From IMG/VR virus record IMGVR_UViG_3300022934_000191, positions 1 to 23,237 of that record: 23,237 bases of DNA; one strand, written 5' to 3'. Shown here piece after piece: positions 1 to 22,400 of this stretch. How positions within the stretch are numbered: the stretch's first letter is position 1; every line of letters starts with the position of its first letter. Source of the stretch: a virus. The notes beneath the pieces are model-generated. The model made no database searches. It was given only the letters and a program-made list of their open reading frames with translations, and was not told the DNA's origin. The position numbers and the translations under genes were made by a program.

Positions 1-336
1 TGTAATTACAACTGATATGTCAGATTCCAATGTATTATCAGCAGTATAATTTTTGTGTTGGTCAGTATTTTCCGGAAATCCTAACCCTTCTAGCCATCGT
101 AGTACTTCTGTGTAATTATTCATTTCTTCGTCAACAATAAACTGAAGAGTTAAATCATCATATGTCAATTTATCTTGTTGAGCGTAAAATGTTCTCAATG
201 GAGTATTCATCTCGACAGGAGATGATGATACGCCGGGAATTGAAACCGATTGAGTAAAAAACTCAACATTCGGCATTCTGTCTATTGAAACAGTAAACGA
301 AGCCGGTGATAAATAATTGTTAATAATTTCGGGCAT
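1..336 (-). CDS. Tail-tube-type protein (T4 gp19/gp54-like), C-terminus outside window
   Basis: The reading frame begins at an ATG (334-336) and stays open for 112 codons to the left edge, so this is a 5' fragment. Visible sequence starts MPEIINNYLSPASFTVSIDR and continues with a PNVEFF segment, an IPG turn, a TPLR segment and then LTYDDLTLQFIVDEEMNNY followed by LRWLEGLGFP. The pattern of an IPG turn, a DDLTLxFIVDE strand and an xxWLxxLGFP helix is what I associate with phage tail-tube folds, used by T4 gp19 (tail tube) and gp54 (tube initiator). Which of the two it is cannot be decided from half a protein. An exact late-promoter octamer lies 36 bases upstream, as expected for a virion gene. 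Fold call fairly sure, exact role not. Confidence 0.65.
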   Translation of the reverse strand, partial: MPEIINNYLSPASFTVSIDRMPNVEFFTQSVSIPGVSSSPVEMNTPLRTFYAQQDKLTYDDLTLQFIVDEEMNNYTEVLRWLEGLGFPENTDQHKNYTADNTLESDISVVIT

Positions 337-371: not shown

Positions 372-379
372 TATTTATA
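372..379 (-). promoter_or_regulatory. Late promoter TATAAATA for the tail-tube-type gene
   Basis: The minus strand reads CGTTATAAATAATG here, an exact match to the T4 late consensus octamer TATAAATA. It lies 36 bases upstream of the ATG at 336. In T4 this element is read by polymerase carrying gp55 with gp33 and the sliding clamp, and a gp33 homologue is present in this window. Confidence 0.7.
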
Positions 380-8280: not shown

Positions 8281-8991
8281 ATGAAGGCAATATTATTTGA
8301 TGTAGATGGAACACTTACCGAATCAAGGCGAGTAATGGATTCAGATTTTAGAAATGAGTTTATCCAATTCTGCTCACAAAATGATGTATTTCTAGTCACA
8401 GGAAGTGACAAACCAAAAACGATTGAACAAATAGGGCTCCCAGCTTATAACGCTGTAAAGGGAGCATATCAATGTAATGGTAATGAATCATGGCGTGATA
8501 GCCGACTTGTAAAAAAGAATGATTTTACTGCTGATTATGATTTTAAACATTTTTTATTAAATGAAATCAATCGTAATGATTATAAAATTAAAACTGGTAG
8601 TCATGTAGAGTTCAGAACCGGTATGTGTAATTTTAGCGTCATAGGTCGTAATTGTAATCAACAACAAAGAGAAGAATATTATCATTGGGACATTAAAACA
8701 AAGCAACGCGAAAAACTTGCCTCAAAGATTATGAAGACATTTCCAGATTTGACAGCATCACTTGGTGGTCAAATCAGCATAGATATATACCCTAAAGGTA
8801 AAAATAAAGCACAGGTCGTTCAAGATCTCATTGACGAAGGTTATACAGAAATGGATTTCTTTGGCGATAAGTGCGAATATGGTGGAAACGATTTCCCATT
8901 ATCAGAAACAATACGCCTTGCTAAGCTTGGAAATGTTTATAAAGTAGATAATTGGGAACACACTAGGAGAATTATAAATGAGCAGAGTTAG
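8281..8991 (+). CDS. Phosphomannomutase-family HAD protein (eukaryotic PMM type)
   Basis: A 236-residue protein that follows the eukaryotic-type phosphomannomutase (PMM1/PMM2, HAD type IIB) end to end. It has LFDVDGTLTESR with the nucleophile D7 and acid/base D9, a VTGSD loop, a HVEFRTGMCNFSVIGRNC segment, GGQISIDIYPKG and FFGDKCEYGGND, which provides the Mg site. The length is near the family's (about 245). PMM converts mannose-6-phosphate to mannose-1-phosphate for GDP-mannose. One difference is PKGKNK where PMM has PDGWDK, so substrate or activity may have drifted. It sits 14 bases after tRNA-Thr in the accessory region. With the two methyltransferases it could feed surface-glycan change, though that link is inference. 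Confidence 0.8.
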   Translation: MKAILFDVDGTLTESRRVMDSDFRNEFIQFCSQNDVFLVTGSDKPKTIEQIGLPAYNAVKGAYQCNGNESWRDSRLVKKNDFTADYDFKHFLLNEINRNDYKIKTGSHVEFRTGMCNFSVIGRNCNQQQREEYYHWDIKTKQREKLASKIMKTFPDLTASLGGQISIDIYPKGKNKAQVVQDLIDEGYTEMDFFGDKCEYGGNDFPLSETIRLAKLGNVYKVDNWEHTRRIINEQS

Positions 8992-12500: not shown

Positions 12501-12890
12501 TTATTTACCGAAAGCTTTTCCAGCCTCAGATATACCAAAAGCACCTAATGTCACAACAACGAATGATGTGTAGATAGTATCGGAAATCAATAAATCTTGT
12601 CCCCAGAATGCTGTCACAAGGTCACATATACCAAATGCAACCATTAACGCAAAACTCATGAACCCGATAATTGATTTCTCATTAATATCATTTTCGTCAC
12701 GGAACAGGGCACCAAATGAAAATTTCTGTTGAGGTTTTGCAGCTGCAGTTGCAATCTGTAATTCCTTAGAAATTTTTTCCATTTCTTTGATTGTATCTTG
12801 AGCTTCATCAAGCTTTAATACCATTTCAGTATATTTTTCAATATCAATGGTAGCTTGACCTTTGCCGGTGTCTACTGTTTCTTTTGCCAT
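12501..12890 (-). CDS. Membrane protein with coiled coil and two TM segments (possible holin-like)
   Basis: A 129-residue protein: a charged helical N-terminal half (EKYTEMVLKLDEAQDTIKEM, coiled coil about 15-48), an amphipathic link, then two TM segments at about 73-95 (IIGFMSFALMVAFGICDLVT) and 103-121. The C-terminus is short and basic. GAGG precedes the ATG. It is the last gene of a late minus-strand operon with three other small membrane proteins, a layout that suits a lysis or membrane-remodelling cassette. No endolysin is present nearby, so the holin idea is only inference. Confidence 0.65.
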   Translation of the reverse strand: MAKETVDTGKGQATIDIEKYTEMVLKLDEAQDTIKEMEKISKELQIATAAAKPQQKFSFGALFRDENDINEKSIIGFMSFALMVAFGICDLVTAFWGQDLLISDTIYTSFVVVTLGAFGISEAGKAFGK

Positions 12891-12891
12891 T

Positions 12892-13098
12892 TTATTTTAC
12901 CTCAGATTTCCATAATGTCCAAGCACCATAGAGTAAACCACCCCATGCCACTAGGTCAATCAATCCACCAAGTAAAAGATATCCACCACAAACGGCAATG
13001 ATAACACCACCATCTAAAGATGTTCTCTCACCTAATCTTGCAAGTACCCAATCTTTTCCAAGATGCCACATGCCCTTTAATGAATCGAAATTTAACAT
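12892..13098 (-). CDS. Small two-TM membrane protein
   Basis: A 68-residue protein with AAGGAG 6 bases ahead of the ATG. The soluble N-terminus includes MLNFDSLKGMWHLGKDWVLA and RLGERTSLDGG; then two glycine-rich hydrophobic spans follow (VIIAVCGGYLLLGGLIDLVA and WGGLLYGAWTLW). The start GxWxLGKDWxLARxxERTS is one I have seen in small phage membrane proteins next to holin-like genes. Its stop lies one base before the next gene start. Function unknown. Confidence 0.65.
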   Translation of the reverse strand: MLNFDSLKGMWHLGKDWVLARLGERTSLDGGVIIAVCGGYLLLGGLIDLVAWGGLLYGAWTLWKSEVK

Positions 13099-13121
13099 AT
13101 AGTTCTCCTTATTATATAGCT

Positions 13122-13286
13122 CTAAACAATATGTTCAGACCTACTTCTTTTAGCGGTGTGACGAACACCATTTTTTGTCACATAAGGTTTTGTAAGACCT
13201 TTTGTTCCTTCTTTACCAAACAAGAAACTTGCTATCGCTATAAAAGTCGGAACAAGTAATGCAACTAATAATACACCGTCAATCAT
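13122..13286 (-). CDS. 54-residue single-TM protein with basic tail
   Basis: An ORF too short for usual cut-offs. ATG at 13284-13286 with AAGG upstream, 3 bases after the IscA-like gene stop. The N-terminus is one hydrophobic span (MIDGVLLVALLVPTFIAIAS, FLFG) followed by a basic tail KEGTKGLTKPYVTKNGVRHT and a Lys/Arg run. It has the shape of a small N-anchored protein with a positive cytoplasmic tail. It fills an otherwise unexplained gap in the operon, which supports it. Confidence 0.6.
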   Translation of the reverse strand: MIDGVLLVALLVPTFIAIASFLFGKEGTKGLTKPYVTKNGVRHTAKRSRSEHIV

Positions 13287-13289
13287 TTT

Positions 13290-13613
13290 TTAAACCTTAA
13301 AATTTACTGAAACTCCACAACCACAGCTTGATACTTCTTTAGGATTTACAATTTTAAAATATTCGTTGAGTCCTTCCTGTATCCAATCTAACGTTGAACC
13401 TTCTAAATAAGGAATGGATAACTCATCAATTGCTATTTTAAATTTACCAAAATCTAAGAGAACATCATCTTTGTGAGTCGTATCAGCGTAAGTAATAATA
13501 TACTCCCAGCCAGCACAACCACCACCAGTGACACCAAGTCGGATAGTATCTCTGCCACCTTCCTTCGTTCTCTCAATCGCCTTAAGTATTGCTGCATCTG
13601 TTAATTCAATCAC
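13290..13613 (-). CDS. A-type Fe-S cluster carrier (IscA/HesB-like)
   Basis: A 107-residue protein with the three conserved cysteines of A-type carriers: C33 in GGGCAGWEY and C97/C99 in the CGCG end (SSCGCGVSVNFKV). The length is the family's usual one. These proteins bind and hand on Fe-S clusters or iron to apo-proteins. Versions are known in marine T4-like phages. The start is GTG, overlapping the upstream stop by 4 bases (GTGA). It lies in a late operon sharing a palindromic promoter with heme oxygenase and bilin reductase, both of which depend on a [2Fe-2S] ferredoxin. A role in supporting that ferredoxin is plausible but inferred. Confidence 0.9.
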   Translation of the reverse strand: MIELTDAAILKAIERTKEGGRDTIRLGVTGGGCAGWEYIITYADTTHKDDVLLDFGKFKIAIDELSIPYLEGSTLDWIQEGLNEYFKIVNPKEVSSCGCGVSVNFKV

Positions 13614-13909
13614 TTTTTCTTTTCTAATTTCTCTATTCGTTTTAGTAATGCTGCGATTTCATCTTTTAATTCTGTAGCACCACCAGGAGCAACAGGAGGA
13701 TGTGAGTCTCTCTCTAATGTTGCAATCCTTTCAGAAACTAGTGGATATTTTTCATGGAACTTTTTATCTTGTTTAATTAAATCTATGCCAAGTCTATCCT
13801 CAGCCCATTTATCAATCTTTAATAACCAAGGTTGCATAAAACTGAACGCGCCTGTAGTAGCCAACTTTAATATAATATTCTTAAAGATTGTAAGTATAAA
13901 AGAAATCAC
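13610..13909 (-). CDS. Membrane-anchored coiled-coil protein, first gene of a late operon
   Basis: I place the start at a GTG (13907-13909) with AAGGA 8 bases ahead, giving 99 residues. The frame is open to a TTG at 13969, but that lies upstream of the late promoter and has no ribosome binding site. The N-terminus is a membrane span (ISFILTIFKNIILKLATTGA). A middle region, WLLKIDKWAEDRLGIDLIKQ, is followed by a Pro/Gly-rich link (HPPVAPGGATE) and a lysine-rich coiled coil at the end (ELKDEIAALLKRIEKLEKKK). No family recognised. Coupled to the IscA-like gene. Confidence 0.6.
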   Translation of the reverse strand: MISFILTIFKNIILKLATTGAFSFMQPWLLKIDKWAEDRLGIDLIKQDKKFHEKYPLVSERIATLERDSHPPVAPGGATELKDEIAALLKRIEKLEKKK

Positions 13910-13941
13910 AATTATATCCTTTATTTTTGTTATTGTGCTAT

Positions 13942-13953
13942 TATTTATAAATA
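13942..13953. promoter_or_regulatory. Palindromic bidirectional late promoter TATTTATAAATA
   Basis: The 12-base sequence TATTTATAAATA is its own reverse complement. It contains an exact TATAAATA on the + strand (13946-13953) and another on the - strand (13942-13949). The + start is 46 bases upstream of the heme oxygenase ATG; the - one lies 33 bases upstream of the GTG of the membrane/IscA operon. Both distances suit T4-type late promoters. Confidence 0.75.
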
Positions 13954-13998
13954 CTTTCAGTATATCCAATGATTTAACAACTCAACAGAGGTGAATTG

Positions 13999-14619
13999 AT
14001 GTCAAATAACTTAAAAGAATTAACAAGAGCACACCACGATAGTGCAGAAAGAACAGAATTTGCAGACATGCTTATGTCTGGCCAAATTAGTCCAAAATTA
14101 TACCAAGAATATCTACACGCACAACTTCAAAACTATATGGTATTGGAATCAGCTGTAAGTGTCCCAATGGAGCTAGAACCAATTTTTCGCTCTACATTAA
14201 TTGAAGATGATTTACAAGAATTAGAGAATCTTTTCAATTTAGACGAAATCGAAGATAATCTACAATCAACAATAGAATATAACCATCATATCCAAACACT
14301 TATGGAAGATGGAAATAATGATGCTTTAATAGCACATCTATATGTAAGACATTTTGGTGACGCCCACGGTGGCCAAATAATCAAAAAGAATGTTCCCGGC
14401 AGTGGTAGAATGTATGAATTTGATGATAGACCAGGCTTAATTAAGGGTGTAAGAGAACTATTACATGATGGAATGGCTGATGAAGCAAAAAATTGTTTTG
14501 AATATGCTGAAAGACTTTTCCATGAATTAATGGAACGATACCAAGAAAATCCAGAAGAATATTTACCGGAAGCTGCATTGCTTGCTCAAGCAAATGGATA
14601 TCTAGAAGACTACGAATAA
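13999..14619 (+). CDS. ho1: Heme oxygenase
   Basis: A 206-residue protein of the biliverdin-forming heme oxygenase family. The N-terminus LKELTRAHHDSAER carries the proximal heme ligand, His13 by alignment of HDSAE with the HxxAE of known enzymes. The distal helix signature is HLYVRHFGDAHGGQI with G120, D121 and G124-G125. Length fits the cyanobacterial and phage forms. The reaction opens heme to biliverdin, CO and Fe2+, using O2 and electrons from ferredoxin. The start is ATG 13999 with GAGGTG ahead (a TTG at 13996 is discounted). The stop overlaps the bilin reductase start, so the two are co-translated. Expected late expression from the palindromic promoter. Confidence 0.9.
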   Translation: MSNNLKELTRAHHDSAERTEFADMLMSGQISPKLYQEYLHAQLQNYMVLESAVSVPMELEPIFRSTLIEDDLQELENLFNLDEIEDNLQSTIEYNHHIQTLMEDGNNDALIAHLYVRHFGDAHGGQIIKKNVPGSGRMYEFDDRPGLIKGVRELLHDGMADEAKNCFEYAERLFHELMERYQENPEEYLPEAALLAQANGYLEDYE

Positions 14620-15305
14620 TGGAAAGTGAATTATTTGATAGGCTGAGGGTATTGTCAGGCGAACTTGTTTCGCTGTTTGATAAAAGTATGACACGGTATG
14701 ACAATCCTAAACATACAGCAGATTTAGATGGTTGGAAAGATGCATTTTGGAAAAGCGATACAATTCGAAAAGCTCACCTCAAAACAATAGAGCCAGTTGG
14801 AAAGAATAAACTCTGGCTCATGCACATTAATATTTTCCCACAATTTGATGTTGACCTTCCTATCTTTGGTTTGGATATAGTAGCGAATCCTAAAAAGATC
14901 TCAGGTTGCTTTTGTGATTATTCACCTACATCTGAAAGATACCATCCTTTCTTAGATAAGTTTAAATTAGAAACATCTGGTTTGACTTGGACAAGAGCAA
15001 GAGAAATGCCAGATTGGGCTCAAGAAATTTTCAGTCCTAATATTGTAGGTGCTGGTTCAATACGAGAAGGAGAGGAGACAGACCAACTCTGTCAGATGGC
15101 CTTTAATCTTGCTTCCTTTTATTGTATGGAAATGGATAACCCAGTTCATCAAAAGGTAGATGGGCTGAATACAAGAGATGCTCAAAACAAATATTGTCGT
15201 AATCAGAAAATGAATAGAATGCTTCATTCATCAATCCTTGCAATGGGGATATCTGAAGAGCGCAAGAACCAATATGTTGAAGATGTACTCTTTGAAGAAG
15301 TATAA
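14619..15305 (+). CDS. pcyX: Ferredoxin-dependent bilin reductase (PcyX/PebS/PcyA family)
   Basis: A 228-residue protein with the bilin reductase signatures in order: RKAHLKTIEP (50-59), KLWLMHINIFPQFDVDLPIF (64-83), GLDIVA, KISGCFCDYSPT (93-103), WTRAREMPDWAQEIFS and near the end AQNKYCRNQKMN. The family reduces biliverdin with electrons from ferredoxin; PcyA makes phycocyanobilin, while phage PebS and PcyX make phycoerythrobilin. Asp100 in CDYSP is a candidate catalytic aspartate. I name it PcyX because the setting is a T4-like phage without visible cyanophage pigment genes; sequence alone does not prove this over PebS. One-base overlap with the heme oxygenase stop. Family sure, subclass moderate. 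Confidence 0.85.
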   Translation: MESELFDRLRVLSGELVSLFDKSMTRYDNPKHTADLDGWKDAFWKSDTIRKAHLKTIEPVGKNKLWLMHINIFPQFDVDLPIFGLDIVANPKKISGCFCDYSPTSERYHPFLDKFKLETSGLTWTRAREMPDWAQEIFSPNIVGAGSIREGEETDQLCQMAFNLASFYCMEMDNPVHQKVDGLNTRDAQNKYCRNQKMNRMLHSSILAMGISEERKNQYVEDVLFEEV

Positions 15306-17101: not shown

Positions 17102-18043
17102 ATGGCACTTACAGACTTTTCTTCGCTCAAGAAGAACAGAAAAAATACTCTCGATAAGTTGAATTCTCAACTCGAGAAAATCGCAAAACCATCTTACCAA
17201 GACCCTAACGAAGGTAAATTTTGGAAACCTACTAGAGATAAAGCTGGTAATGGATTCGCAGTAATCCGTTTCTTACCTGCACCTCAAGGTGAAGAAATGC
17301 CTTTCGTAAGGATTTGGGACCATGGATTCCAAGGACCTACAGGTCAGTGGTATATCGAAAACTCATTAACCACTTTGGGACAGGACGACCCTGTTTCTGA
17401 GTACAATTCCAAACTCTGGAATTCAGGTATTGAGGCTGATAAGGAACAAGCAAGAAAACAGAAGCGTAGGCTGAAGTACATTGCTAATATCTATGTTGTG
17501 AAAGACTCAGCAAATCCAGAAAACGAAGGCAAAGTATTCATGTACCAATTCGGTAAGAAAATCTTTGACAAGTTAAATGATTTAATGAATCCTTCATTCG
17601 AAGATGAAACTCCTGTCAATCCATTTGATTTATGGGAAGGTGCAAACTTTAGACTGAAAATTCGTCAGTTCGAAGGTTATCCTAACTATGACAAATCTGA
17701 ATTTGACCCTGCGACACCTTTATTCGAAGATGATGCAGAGTTGGAGAGAGTATGGAATGAAGAACATTCCCTCCAGGAACTACTTGAACCTAAAAACTTC
17801 AAGTCTTATGCTGATTTAAAAACCAAACTCTACAGAGTTCTGGATTTATCGTCAGACACAACCGAACAGGTTGCAACATCAAGCTTTGATAATGACACAG
17901 GAGACTCTTCTGATGACCTTGACTTGAGTAATCTATCTCAATCTGCACCAGAACCTTCTGCACCAGTTGCTGAAACCCCTGCGGCCAGCACTGATGACGA
18001 TGATGACGATCTATCAATCTTCAAAGAGCTTGCTAGAGGCTAA
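17102..18043 (+). CDS. 32: Single-stranded DNA-binding protein (T4 gp32)
   Basis: A 313-residue protein with the T4 gp32 layout. The basic N-terminal cooperativity region includes SLKKNRKNTLDKL. The core has FWKPTRDKAGNGFAVIRFLP, GQWYIENSLTTLGQDDPVSE, IANIYVVKDSANPENEGKVF and FGKKIFDKLND. A Ser/Asp/Glu-rich acidic tail follows from about 255 (DDDDDDLSIF near the end). It coats ssDNA and recruits gp59, UvsX and polymerase. The T4 core binds zinc through three cysteines and a histidine; this protein has no cysteine at all, so the zinc site is lost, as I recall for marine relatives. AAGGAG precedes the ATG. Confidence 0.95.
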   Translation: MALTDFSSLKKNRKNTLDKLNSQLEKIAKPSYQDPNEGKFWKPTRDKAGNGFAVIRFLPAPQGEEMPFVRIWDHGFQGPTGQWYIENSLTTLGQDDPVSEYNSKLWNSGIEADKEQARKQKRRLKYIANIYVVKDSANPENEGKVFMYQFGKKIFDKLNDLMNPSFEDETPVNPFDLWEGANFRLKIRQFEGYPNYDKSEFDPATPLFEDDAELERVWNEEHSLQELLEPKNFKSYADLKTKLYRVLDLSSDTTEQVATSSFDNDTGDSSDDLDLSNLSQSAPEPSAPVAETPAASTDDDDDDLSIFKELARG

Positions 18044-20887: not shown

Positions 20888-20895
20888 TATAAATA
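20888..20895 (+). promoter_or_regulatory. Late promoter TATAAATA for the packaged-protein unit
   Basis: An exact TATAAATA lies 45 bases before the ATG at 20940 and 10 bases after gene 41. The predicted start is near 20901. It marks the switch from the replication operon to a late unit. Confidence 0.75.
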
Positions 20896-20939: not shown

Positions 20940-22400
20940 ATGAAACGCTTCGGCAATTATATTACAGAAGGCTCAATTCTTAAACCAGACTACGTAGTAG
21001 GTCATAAATTTGTTTTTAAAGGTAATGGCTTTAAAGAGCTATTAGCTTTAGGTTATAAGAAAGATGATATATTCGAGGTTGTATCTGAAAATCCTAATGC
21101 ATTAGAGGTTGGACCACAGGGTGGTGATTTTGTAAAACACCTTAAAGGTCCTGATGGTCGTATCATTAAAATCACAGGTGGCTCCGCGTCGGCCAAATCG
21201 GGTAATTTCACACACCTACCCGCGGCCGGCTCACCTCCGAAAGCAGCAGAATGGGAAGATCTCATTGTATATGCTTATAATAAGATTAATAATCAACCCA
21301 CAGATGAAGCCACATCTGAAGTAGCATTAAAATACTGGGATTTATATTCTGAAAATGCTACAACAATTGCTAAAAATTTCAATAGAGCCTTAAAAACGAA
21401 TCGTATGGTCCAAACTGGTCGCGGAGGCGCGGTTGGTAAAGTAGAATTAGGTCCATTTTGGAAAGAAACAGGTGCAGGAGATAAAACTCCAAAAACCGAT
21501 ATCGCATCAGCTGACTTTAAAGAGAAGGTATCTTTGAAAAAGACAGGTGGTTCTCAATTGGCATCAGCTGAGAAAAAAGAAGGTATCGCCATTGTTAAGT
21601 CTGCACTTGCTGAAATGGGTGCTCAACCAGGTTTCGCAAAAGATCTTTTAGACGCAATGGAAGAAAAAATGACTAAATTGATTAGTCGTGAAACTACTGG
21701 TAGTTTAGAAGACGCGGCCAAGGCTGGTAAAAAGACAGCAGAGGTACTTGATTACCAGAAAAAGGATGCTCAAAATAAGGAACTTTCAATAATGCTTGAA
21801 AGTTATATTAACCAAAATACAGCAGCAAATTCTTTATTCGCAAAACATGTTGTATTTGAAGCTTCTACTGGTAATAATAAATTCGGTTCTCCATCATCAA
21901 AGGCTGCAGCAAATTTATTAGGAAAATTTGACCCATCTGGTTCAGTTGTAATAGAACCAATTAGGAGTGTAAACGACCCTATTATTTCAAAATACGCTAA
22001 AAATGTCAAACCTTATGTTGCATTTAAAAAGGGTGGAGCAAGTCCAGCCTATTCTGCATTCCGATTAGGTTTATCAAAAACAAATGAAGAATTTGAAACA
22101 TTTTCTTCCATAGTTCTAAATGAATTAAATAGCCATAAAGAATTCCAATCATTATTAACAGAGGACTTTTTACAAGAAGGACCTTTTGATATGCTTCGAA
22201 AAGCAGGAGTTGCAATTAGAAGTATGGGTAAAAAAGCACTTGGCTTTTTGAAGAGAGTAGTTGATAATATTATGGCTAATGTGAAAAAAGTATTTAAAAG
22301 ACTTGTATCGGCTGGTAAAAGCATGTTTAAACGATTAATGGCATTCTTTGGATTGGATATATCTTCTACGAGAGGTATTCCTGGTGGGGTATCTCTATAA
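20940..22400 (+). CDS. Putative head-packaged protein with nuclease-like core and basic C-terminus
   Basis: A 486-residue protein. The start MKRFGNYITE followed by G resembles the capsid-targeting peptide of T4 internal proteins, cut by prohead protease gp21 after (I/L)xE; here after E10. A core at about 100-210 has WEDLIVYAYN, KTDIAS and VSLKKTGGSQLAS, which could be the E, D and (S)xK parts of a PD-(D/E)xK nuclease fold (E106, D187, K200). Residues 418-470 are strongly basic and amphipathic (SMGKKALGFLKRVVDNIM, VKKVFKRLVSAGKSMFKRLM). A second possible cut is LQE (411-413) before G. Preceded by an exact late octamer. No known family; packaging and nuclease ideas are inferred. Confidence 0.6.
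   Translation: MKRFGNYITEGSILKPDYVVGHKFVFKGNGFKELLALGYKKDDIFEVVSENPNALEVGPQGGDFVKHLKGPDGRIIKITGGSASAKSGNFTHLPAAGSPPKAAEWEDLIVYAYNKINNQPTDEATSEVALKYWDLYSENATTIAKNFNRALKTNRMVQTGRGGAVGKVELGPFWKETGAGDKTPKTDIASADFKEKVSLKKTGGSQLASAEKKEGIAIVKSALAEMGAQPGFAKDLLDAMEEKMTKLISRETTGSLEDAAKAGKKTAEVLDYQKKDAQNKELSIMLESYINQNTAANSLFAKHVVFEASTGNNKFGSPSSKAAANLLGKFDPSGSVVIEPIRSVNDPIISKYAKNVKPYVAFKKGGASPAYSAFRLGLSKTNEEFETFSSIVLNELNSHKEFQSLLTEDFLQEGPFDMLRKAGVAIRSMGKKALGFLKRVVDNIMANVKKVFKRLVSAGKSMFKRLMAFFGLDISSTRGIPGGVSL

Follow-up and report, generated by a model that had tools for sequence, protein, structure and literature searches.

The window analysed here is a 23,237-base IMG/VR virus record (G000), a fragment with replication genes of the T4 type (topoisomerase subunits, a gp59-like loader, gp32, UvsX and a replicative helicase). 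Four tRNA genes are found between 7511 and 9531 (Arg-tct, Leu-taa, Thr-tgt and Arg-acg). The 12-base sequence TATTTATAAATA sits between two divergent gene groups, with heme oxygenase and bilin reductase genes on its right and a small protein and an IscA-like protein on its left (Table 1). The 99-aa product of the first leftward gene gave no family match. The translation starts proposed in the first-pass annotation, GTG 13909 and ATG 13999, are correct, each being preceded by a Shine-Dalgarno sequence. For the leftward gene, the GTG start is supported over a longer, unlikely one at TTG 13969, because most relatives that share the 99-aa gene carry stop codons upstream of the aligned point. The region 13122-13909 places the IscA-like gene and a changing first gene opposite the heme/bilin operon; this first gene encodes 99 aa in the window, 53 aa with a similar VAPGG segment in locus L040 and about 52 aa in L018. 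It is possible that this arrangement constitutes an iron or heme handling cassette.

Table 1. Features of the divergent junction and late octamers elsewhere in the window
Feature	Position	Strand	Basis or remark
Palindrome TATTTATAAATA, two late octamers with common central TATA	13942..13953	.	Sequence; invariant in 32 distinct related junctions
Rightward late-promoter octamer TATAAATA	13946..13953	+	Predicted transcription start ~13959, 40-nt leader; -13 to -6 rule
Leftward late-promoter octamer TATAAATA	13942..13949	-	Predicted transcription start ~13936, 27-nt leader; -13 to -6 rule
Shine-Dalgarno GAGGTGA of heme oxygenase gene	13988..13994	+	Sequence
Heme oxygenase (PF01126), ATG 13999	13999..14619	+	Family match, E 8.5e-20
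Ferredoxin-dependent bilin reductase (PF05996), overlapping heme oxygenase stop	14619..15305	+	Family match
Shine-Dalgarno AAAGGA of first leftward gene	13917..13922	-	Sequence
First leftward gene, 99 aa, GTG 13909 start	13610..13909	-	Start backed by stop codons that relatives carry upstream
IscA/HesB-like Fe-S biosynthesis protein (PF01521), overlapping first leftward gene	13290..13613	-	Family match
Rest of leftward group: 54-aa (13122-13286), 68-aa (12892-13098), 129-aa (12501-12890)	12501..13286	-	Open reading frames
One-way late octamer, upstream of tail tube gene (1-336, minus strand)	372..379	-	Octamer scan
One-way late octamer, upstream of 486-aa gene at 20940	20888..20895	+	Octamer scan

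As the first-pass annotation had noted, TATTTATAAATA is perfectly self-complementary over its 12 bases and contains the exact late octamer TATAAATA on both strands. It is equivalent to the TATAAATA of each strand fused, the central TATA being common to both (4-bp overlap). The octamers end 45 nt before ATG 13999 and 32 nt before GTG 13909. Since the published position of the late octamer is -13 to -6 (PMC1524935), the transcription starts and leader lengths given in Table 1 can be predicted. The window holds a single copy of TATTTATAAATA, even with one mismatch allowed, with 0.02 exact copies expected from a first-order Markov model. Palindromy by itself was dropped as a signal, ten perfect 12-bp palindromes being present in the window, and so was the octamer count, 4 observed against 2.85 expected, which is not significant. 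A cruciform or a terminator was rejected: the palindrome is 12 bp without a loop and there is no terminator-like site. The signal of the palindrome is its position and conservation, not octamer count or palindromy, and the case for it is weak from the window alone and strong from comparative evidence.

A total of 80 IMG/VR loci encoding heme oxygenase relatives were fetched; the 4-kb region, used as a nucleotide query against the phage collection, gave no match. The exact palindrome lies upstream of heme oxygenase in every relative above about 66% identity, except for one locus that begins inside the gene, and this is the unbiased statement of its conservation. The search for the same palindrome between divergent genes of related genomes that the first-pass annotation had suggested finds it kept in 67 viral contigs with enough flank, all collected by presence of the 12-mer. 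They represent 32 distinct junctions (less than 85% ungapped identity, an identity cut-off and not a tree), in which 12 of 12 palindrome positions are invariant and the 40 flanking bases average 39% ungapped identity. The palindrome is found once per contig in the relatives. The leftward gene of the heme oxygenase loci is divergent wherever it was called (a few loci have a spurious overlapping frame on that side, produced by crude gene calling), and in the called cases the distance from the palindrome to the start is 31-55 nt on the left and 42-76 nt on the right. Independent sampling through the leftward lipase gene gave 40 loci with the palindrome in all 39 that were assessable; divergent heme oxygenase is in view in 38 of these, the remaining one being cut off by the contig end.

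The leftward partners belong to four unrelated groups: a lipase-like gene in 39 loci, the 99-aa gene in ten (window included), a 68-aa gene in nine and an IscA-like gene in one. Some of these changes look like loss of the first genes, because the 68-aa gene is similar to gene four of the leftward group in the window. The palindrome stays 31-55 nt from the leftward start even when the leftward gene is replaced. In a single lineage, L075-L080, both octamers are kept in a 2-bp instead of a 4-bp overlap, TATTTATATAAATA, so that what is conserved is one octamer per strand and not a dyad of fixed spacing. In L081, heme oxygenase lies behind a same-strand gene and a terminator-like hairpin, and its upstream region has the forward octamer alone. 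A permuted tmRNA separates the palindrome from heme oxygenase in L067, L068 and L072, yet the lipase gene still has the palindrome next to it. L071 departs from the pattern in that the exact palindrome has been lost; TATTTATT is left towards the lipase gene, and a TTGACA-type element stands on the opposite side. No octamer was found upstream of heme oxygenase in the more distant L069, L073 and L074, and in the last two the gene has same-strand neighbours. Permuted tmRNA genes of the alphaproteobacterial type occur in five of these T4-like contigs (L067 3314-3689, L068 9654-10029, L071 9689-10012, L072 3083-3452 and L066 9595-9957; an example of their tag is ANDDVYDMEYALAA), and in four of the five they lie between the divergent junction and heme oxygenase.

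Use of the octamer extends beyond this junction. Compared with the other permutations of its letters (56 in all), TATAAATA ranks first before genes in the window, in the related contigs G001, G002 and G005 (170, 89 and 50 kb, respectively), and in T4, RB49, HTVC008M and Mosig. It ranks second or third in four cyanophages, where the described late motif is NATAAATA (PMC2984593). Of the 20 copies in G001, 15 are sense-oriented and stand 15-90 nt ahead of a gene start, and the genes behind them include those for major head, scaffold, sheath, tube cap, baseplate wedge and neck proteins; the window's copy at 372-379 stands before the tail tube gene. A 475-486 aa protein of no assigned family and without PHROG match stands behind a late octamer in two phages (window 20940-22400, L084 10609-12036). 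The late sigma factor gp55 (phrog_234) is encoded in G001, G002, G006 and G007 (E about 1e-64) and gave no match in the other contigs examined, which are all incomplete; the window itself, a 23-kb fragment, is without visible gp55, gp33 and gp45. Three of the gp55 matches contain one stop codon inside the matched stretch (G001 54248-54721, G007 17534-18007 and G006 8504-8986), probably because the alignment extends beyond the natural stop. To the extent that sequence evidence allows a judgement, TATAAATA is the late promoter of these phages. Late operons of pelagimyophages could also be called with this motif; late promoter prediction was reported to fail in that group (PMC7029224), in contrast to the top rank of TATAAATA in the HTVC008M and Mosig genomes (L362-L377).

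Across 11 T4-like genomes or large contigs, five pairs of octamers overlap back to back, both registers counted. Every one of these pairs falls inside divergent intergenic regions, which make up 0.59% of the sequence; three of them are the same homologous heme oxygenase junction, the independent cases being T4 26/51 and Mosig 60954/60990. When all IMG/VR contigs were scanned for the 12-mer together with a ribosome site, the contexts were 33 coding, 60 same-strand, 25 divergent and one convergent, and those of a related 14-mer were similarly mixed. The argument is therefore limited to T4-like phages, since the 12-mer is often a chance occurrence in AT-rich viruses at large. A different arrangement, in which late octamers of divergent genes cross each other with the forward one left of the reverse one, is found in T4 (77337-77385 and 112007-112057), RB49 (64528-64584 and 101215-101286) and Mosig (101417-101467); in such cases the 5' ends of the two transcripts are expected to overlap.

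Taken together, these observations make it very probable that the palindrome represents two back-to-back gp55-type (T4-like) late promoters. In T4, gp55 recognises the octamer alone, which would explain how a promoter core fits into eight bases and two of them fold into twelve. Host RNA polymerase with the phage late sigma factor would recognise TATAAATA on either strand and start about six bases past the octamer, near 13959 for the heme oxygenase and bilin reductase genes and near 13936 for the 99-aa/IscA group. Binding is presumed to be exclusive because both promoters need the central TATA: only one polymerase could be bound at a time and output would be shared by alternation. Judged by the motif, the heme oxygenase, bilin reductase and IscA genes, which are metabolic and not virion genes, would be expressed late. 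A two-way late promoter between two operons, as the first-pass annotation had proposed, is thus well supported by conservation, position, partner swapping and genome-wide octamer use. The 'equal' expression that it attributed to the two operons is another matter, as nothing supports equal output.

The features observed agree with those of T4-type late promoters: an octamer a short distance upstream of a gene, the same motif before virion genes of the phage group, gp55 in relatives and no conserved -35 element. Two opposed overlapping octamers in one divergent intergenic region are likewise found, as in the overlapping divergent late promoter of T4 26/51. Use of one direction only, the octamer on the other strand being a by-product or slowly decaying, appears improbable. 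A separate promoter for the small leftward genes is conceivable, but the invariant bases include the four that belong to the leftward octamer only, and the leftward start keeps its distance through gene replacement. Moreover, the leftward octamer is absent in L081, where the neighbouring gene lies on the same strand.

The dyad might instead be an operator for a dimeric regulator or a site for a replication or recombination protein, as would suit a perfect and highly conserved palindrome present once per contig. This is very improbable: the half-sites lie 2 bp further apart in L075-L080 with both octamers kept, so that the fixed half-site spacing of a dimeric operator is not observed, half the palindrome is enough in the same-strand context of L081, and the half-site is a motif that recurs across the genome in front of virion genes. 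There is scarcely any likelihood of a host sigma-70 type promoter region, in which the octamers would act as -10 elements and expression would be early. TATAAA is similar to TATAAT, and TTGACA-TATAAT-like elements do occur right of the palindrome in a few relatives (L064, L066, L067 and L072). However, no -35 element conserved with the octamers at the right distance was found across the junctions, the best matches being scattered and weak in most of them, and those of the window equal the shuffle mean.

The reading as paired late promoters bears on how late transcription chooses its direction. The T4-type sliding clamp activates only a promoter that faces one way, so that clamp polarity could set direction at a symmetric late promoter, and the orientation of the clamp may do so here. 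A more speculative and rather unlikely extension is that a symmetric late promoter serves as a neutral reader of clamp (replication-strand) polarity, the operons being fired in proportion to the clamps loaded in each orientation, and that the 12-mer acts as a portable two-way cassette for swapped leftward cargo genes. In any case, the symmetry of the core would make it a clean template for how replication-clamp polarity picks the direction of late transcription. The conservation described above suggests that the overlapping two-way late promoter of T4 is also under strong selection in environmental marine T4-like phages, where auxiliary metabolic genes, and not structural genes, lie behind the predicted promoter.

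The first-pass annotation had stated that T4 late promoters are normally described as one-directional, a contrast that proves overstated. The T4 genome carries the identical 12-mer as its sole copy between the divergent late genes 26 and 51 (AF158101 116450-116461), and at the same place in Tequatrovirus Lutter two 8-bp promoters are annotated on opposite strands with an overlap of 4. Matches to the T4 26/51 junction occur in 659 phage records. Scarlato et al. (Virology, 1989) reportedly described how the 26/51 baseplate cluster is transcribed divergently from overlapping promoters; a literature search among open papers found none on overlapping divergent late promoters. The overlapping two-way arrangement is therefore already known. 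The likeness to T4 26/51 lies in the identical 12-mer and the divergent layout. However, the T4 genes are baseplate genes whose starts lie about 22 and 18 nt from the palindrome, whereas the group of the window comprises metabolic genes with longer leaders in marine phages, and its leftward partner changes. Pelagibacter phage Mosig (60954/60990) also has back-to-back octamers between divergent genes that are metabolic as well, in the 2-bp-overlap register, but these are other genes than those of the window junction, and the heme oxygenase gene of Mosig itself is located within a same-strand operon. T4 gene 4/53 and inh/segE share with the window paired late octamers for divergent genes within about 50 bp; there the octamers cross each other, while those of the window overlap back to back. 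What is new is an unusually well conserved member of the T4 26/51 type in marine T4-like phages, with its conservation, its metabolic cargo and the exchange of its leftward partner.
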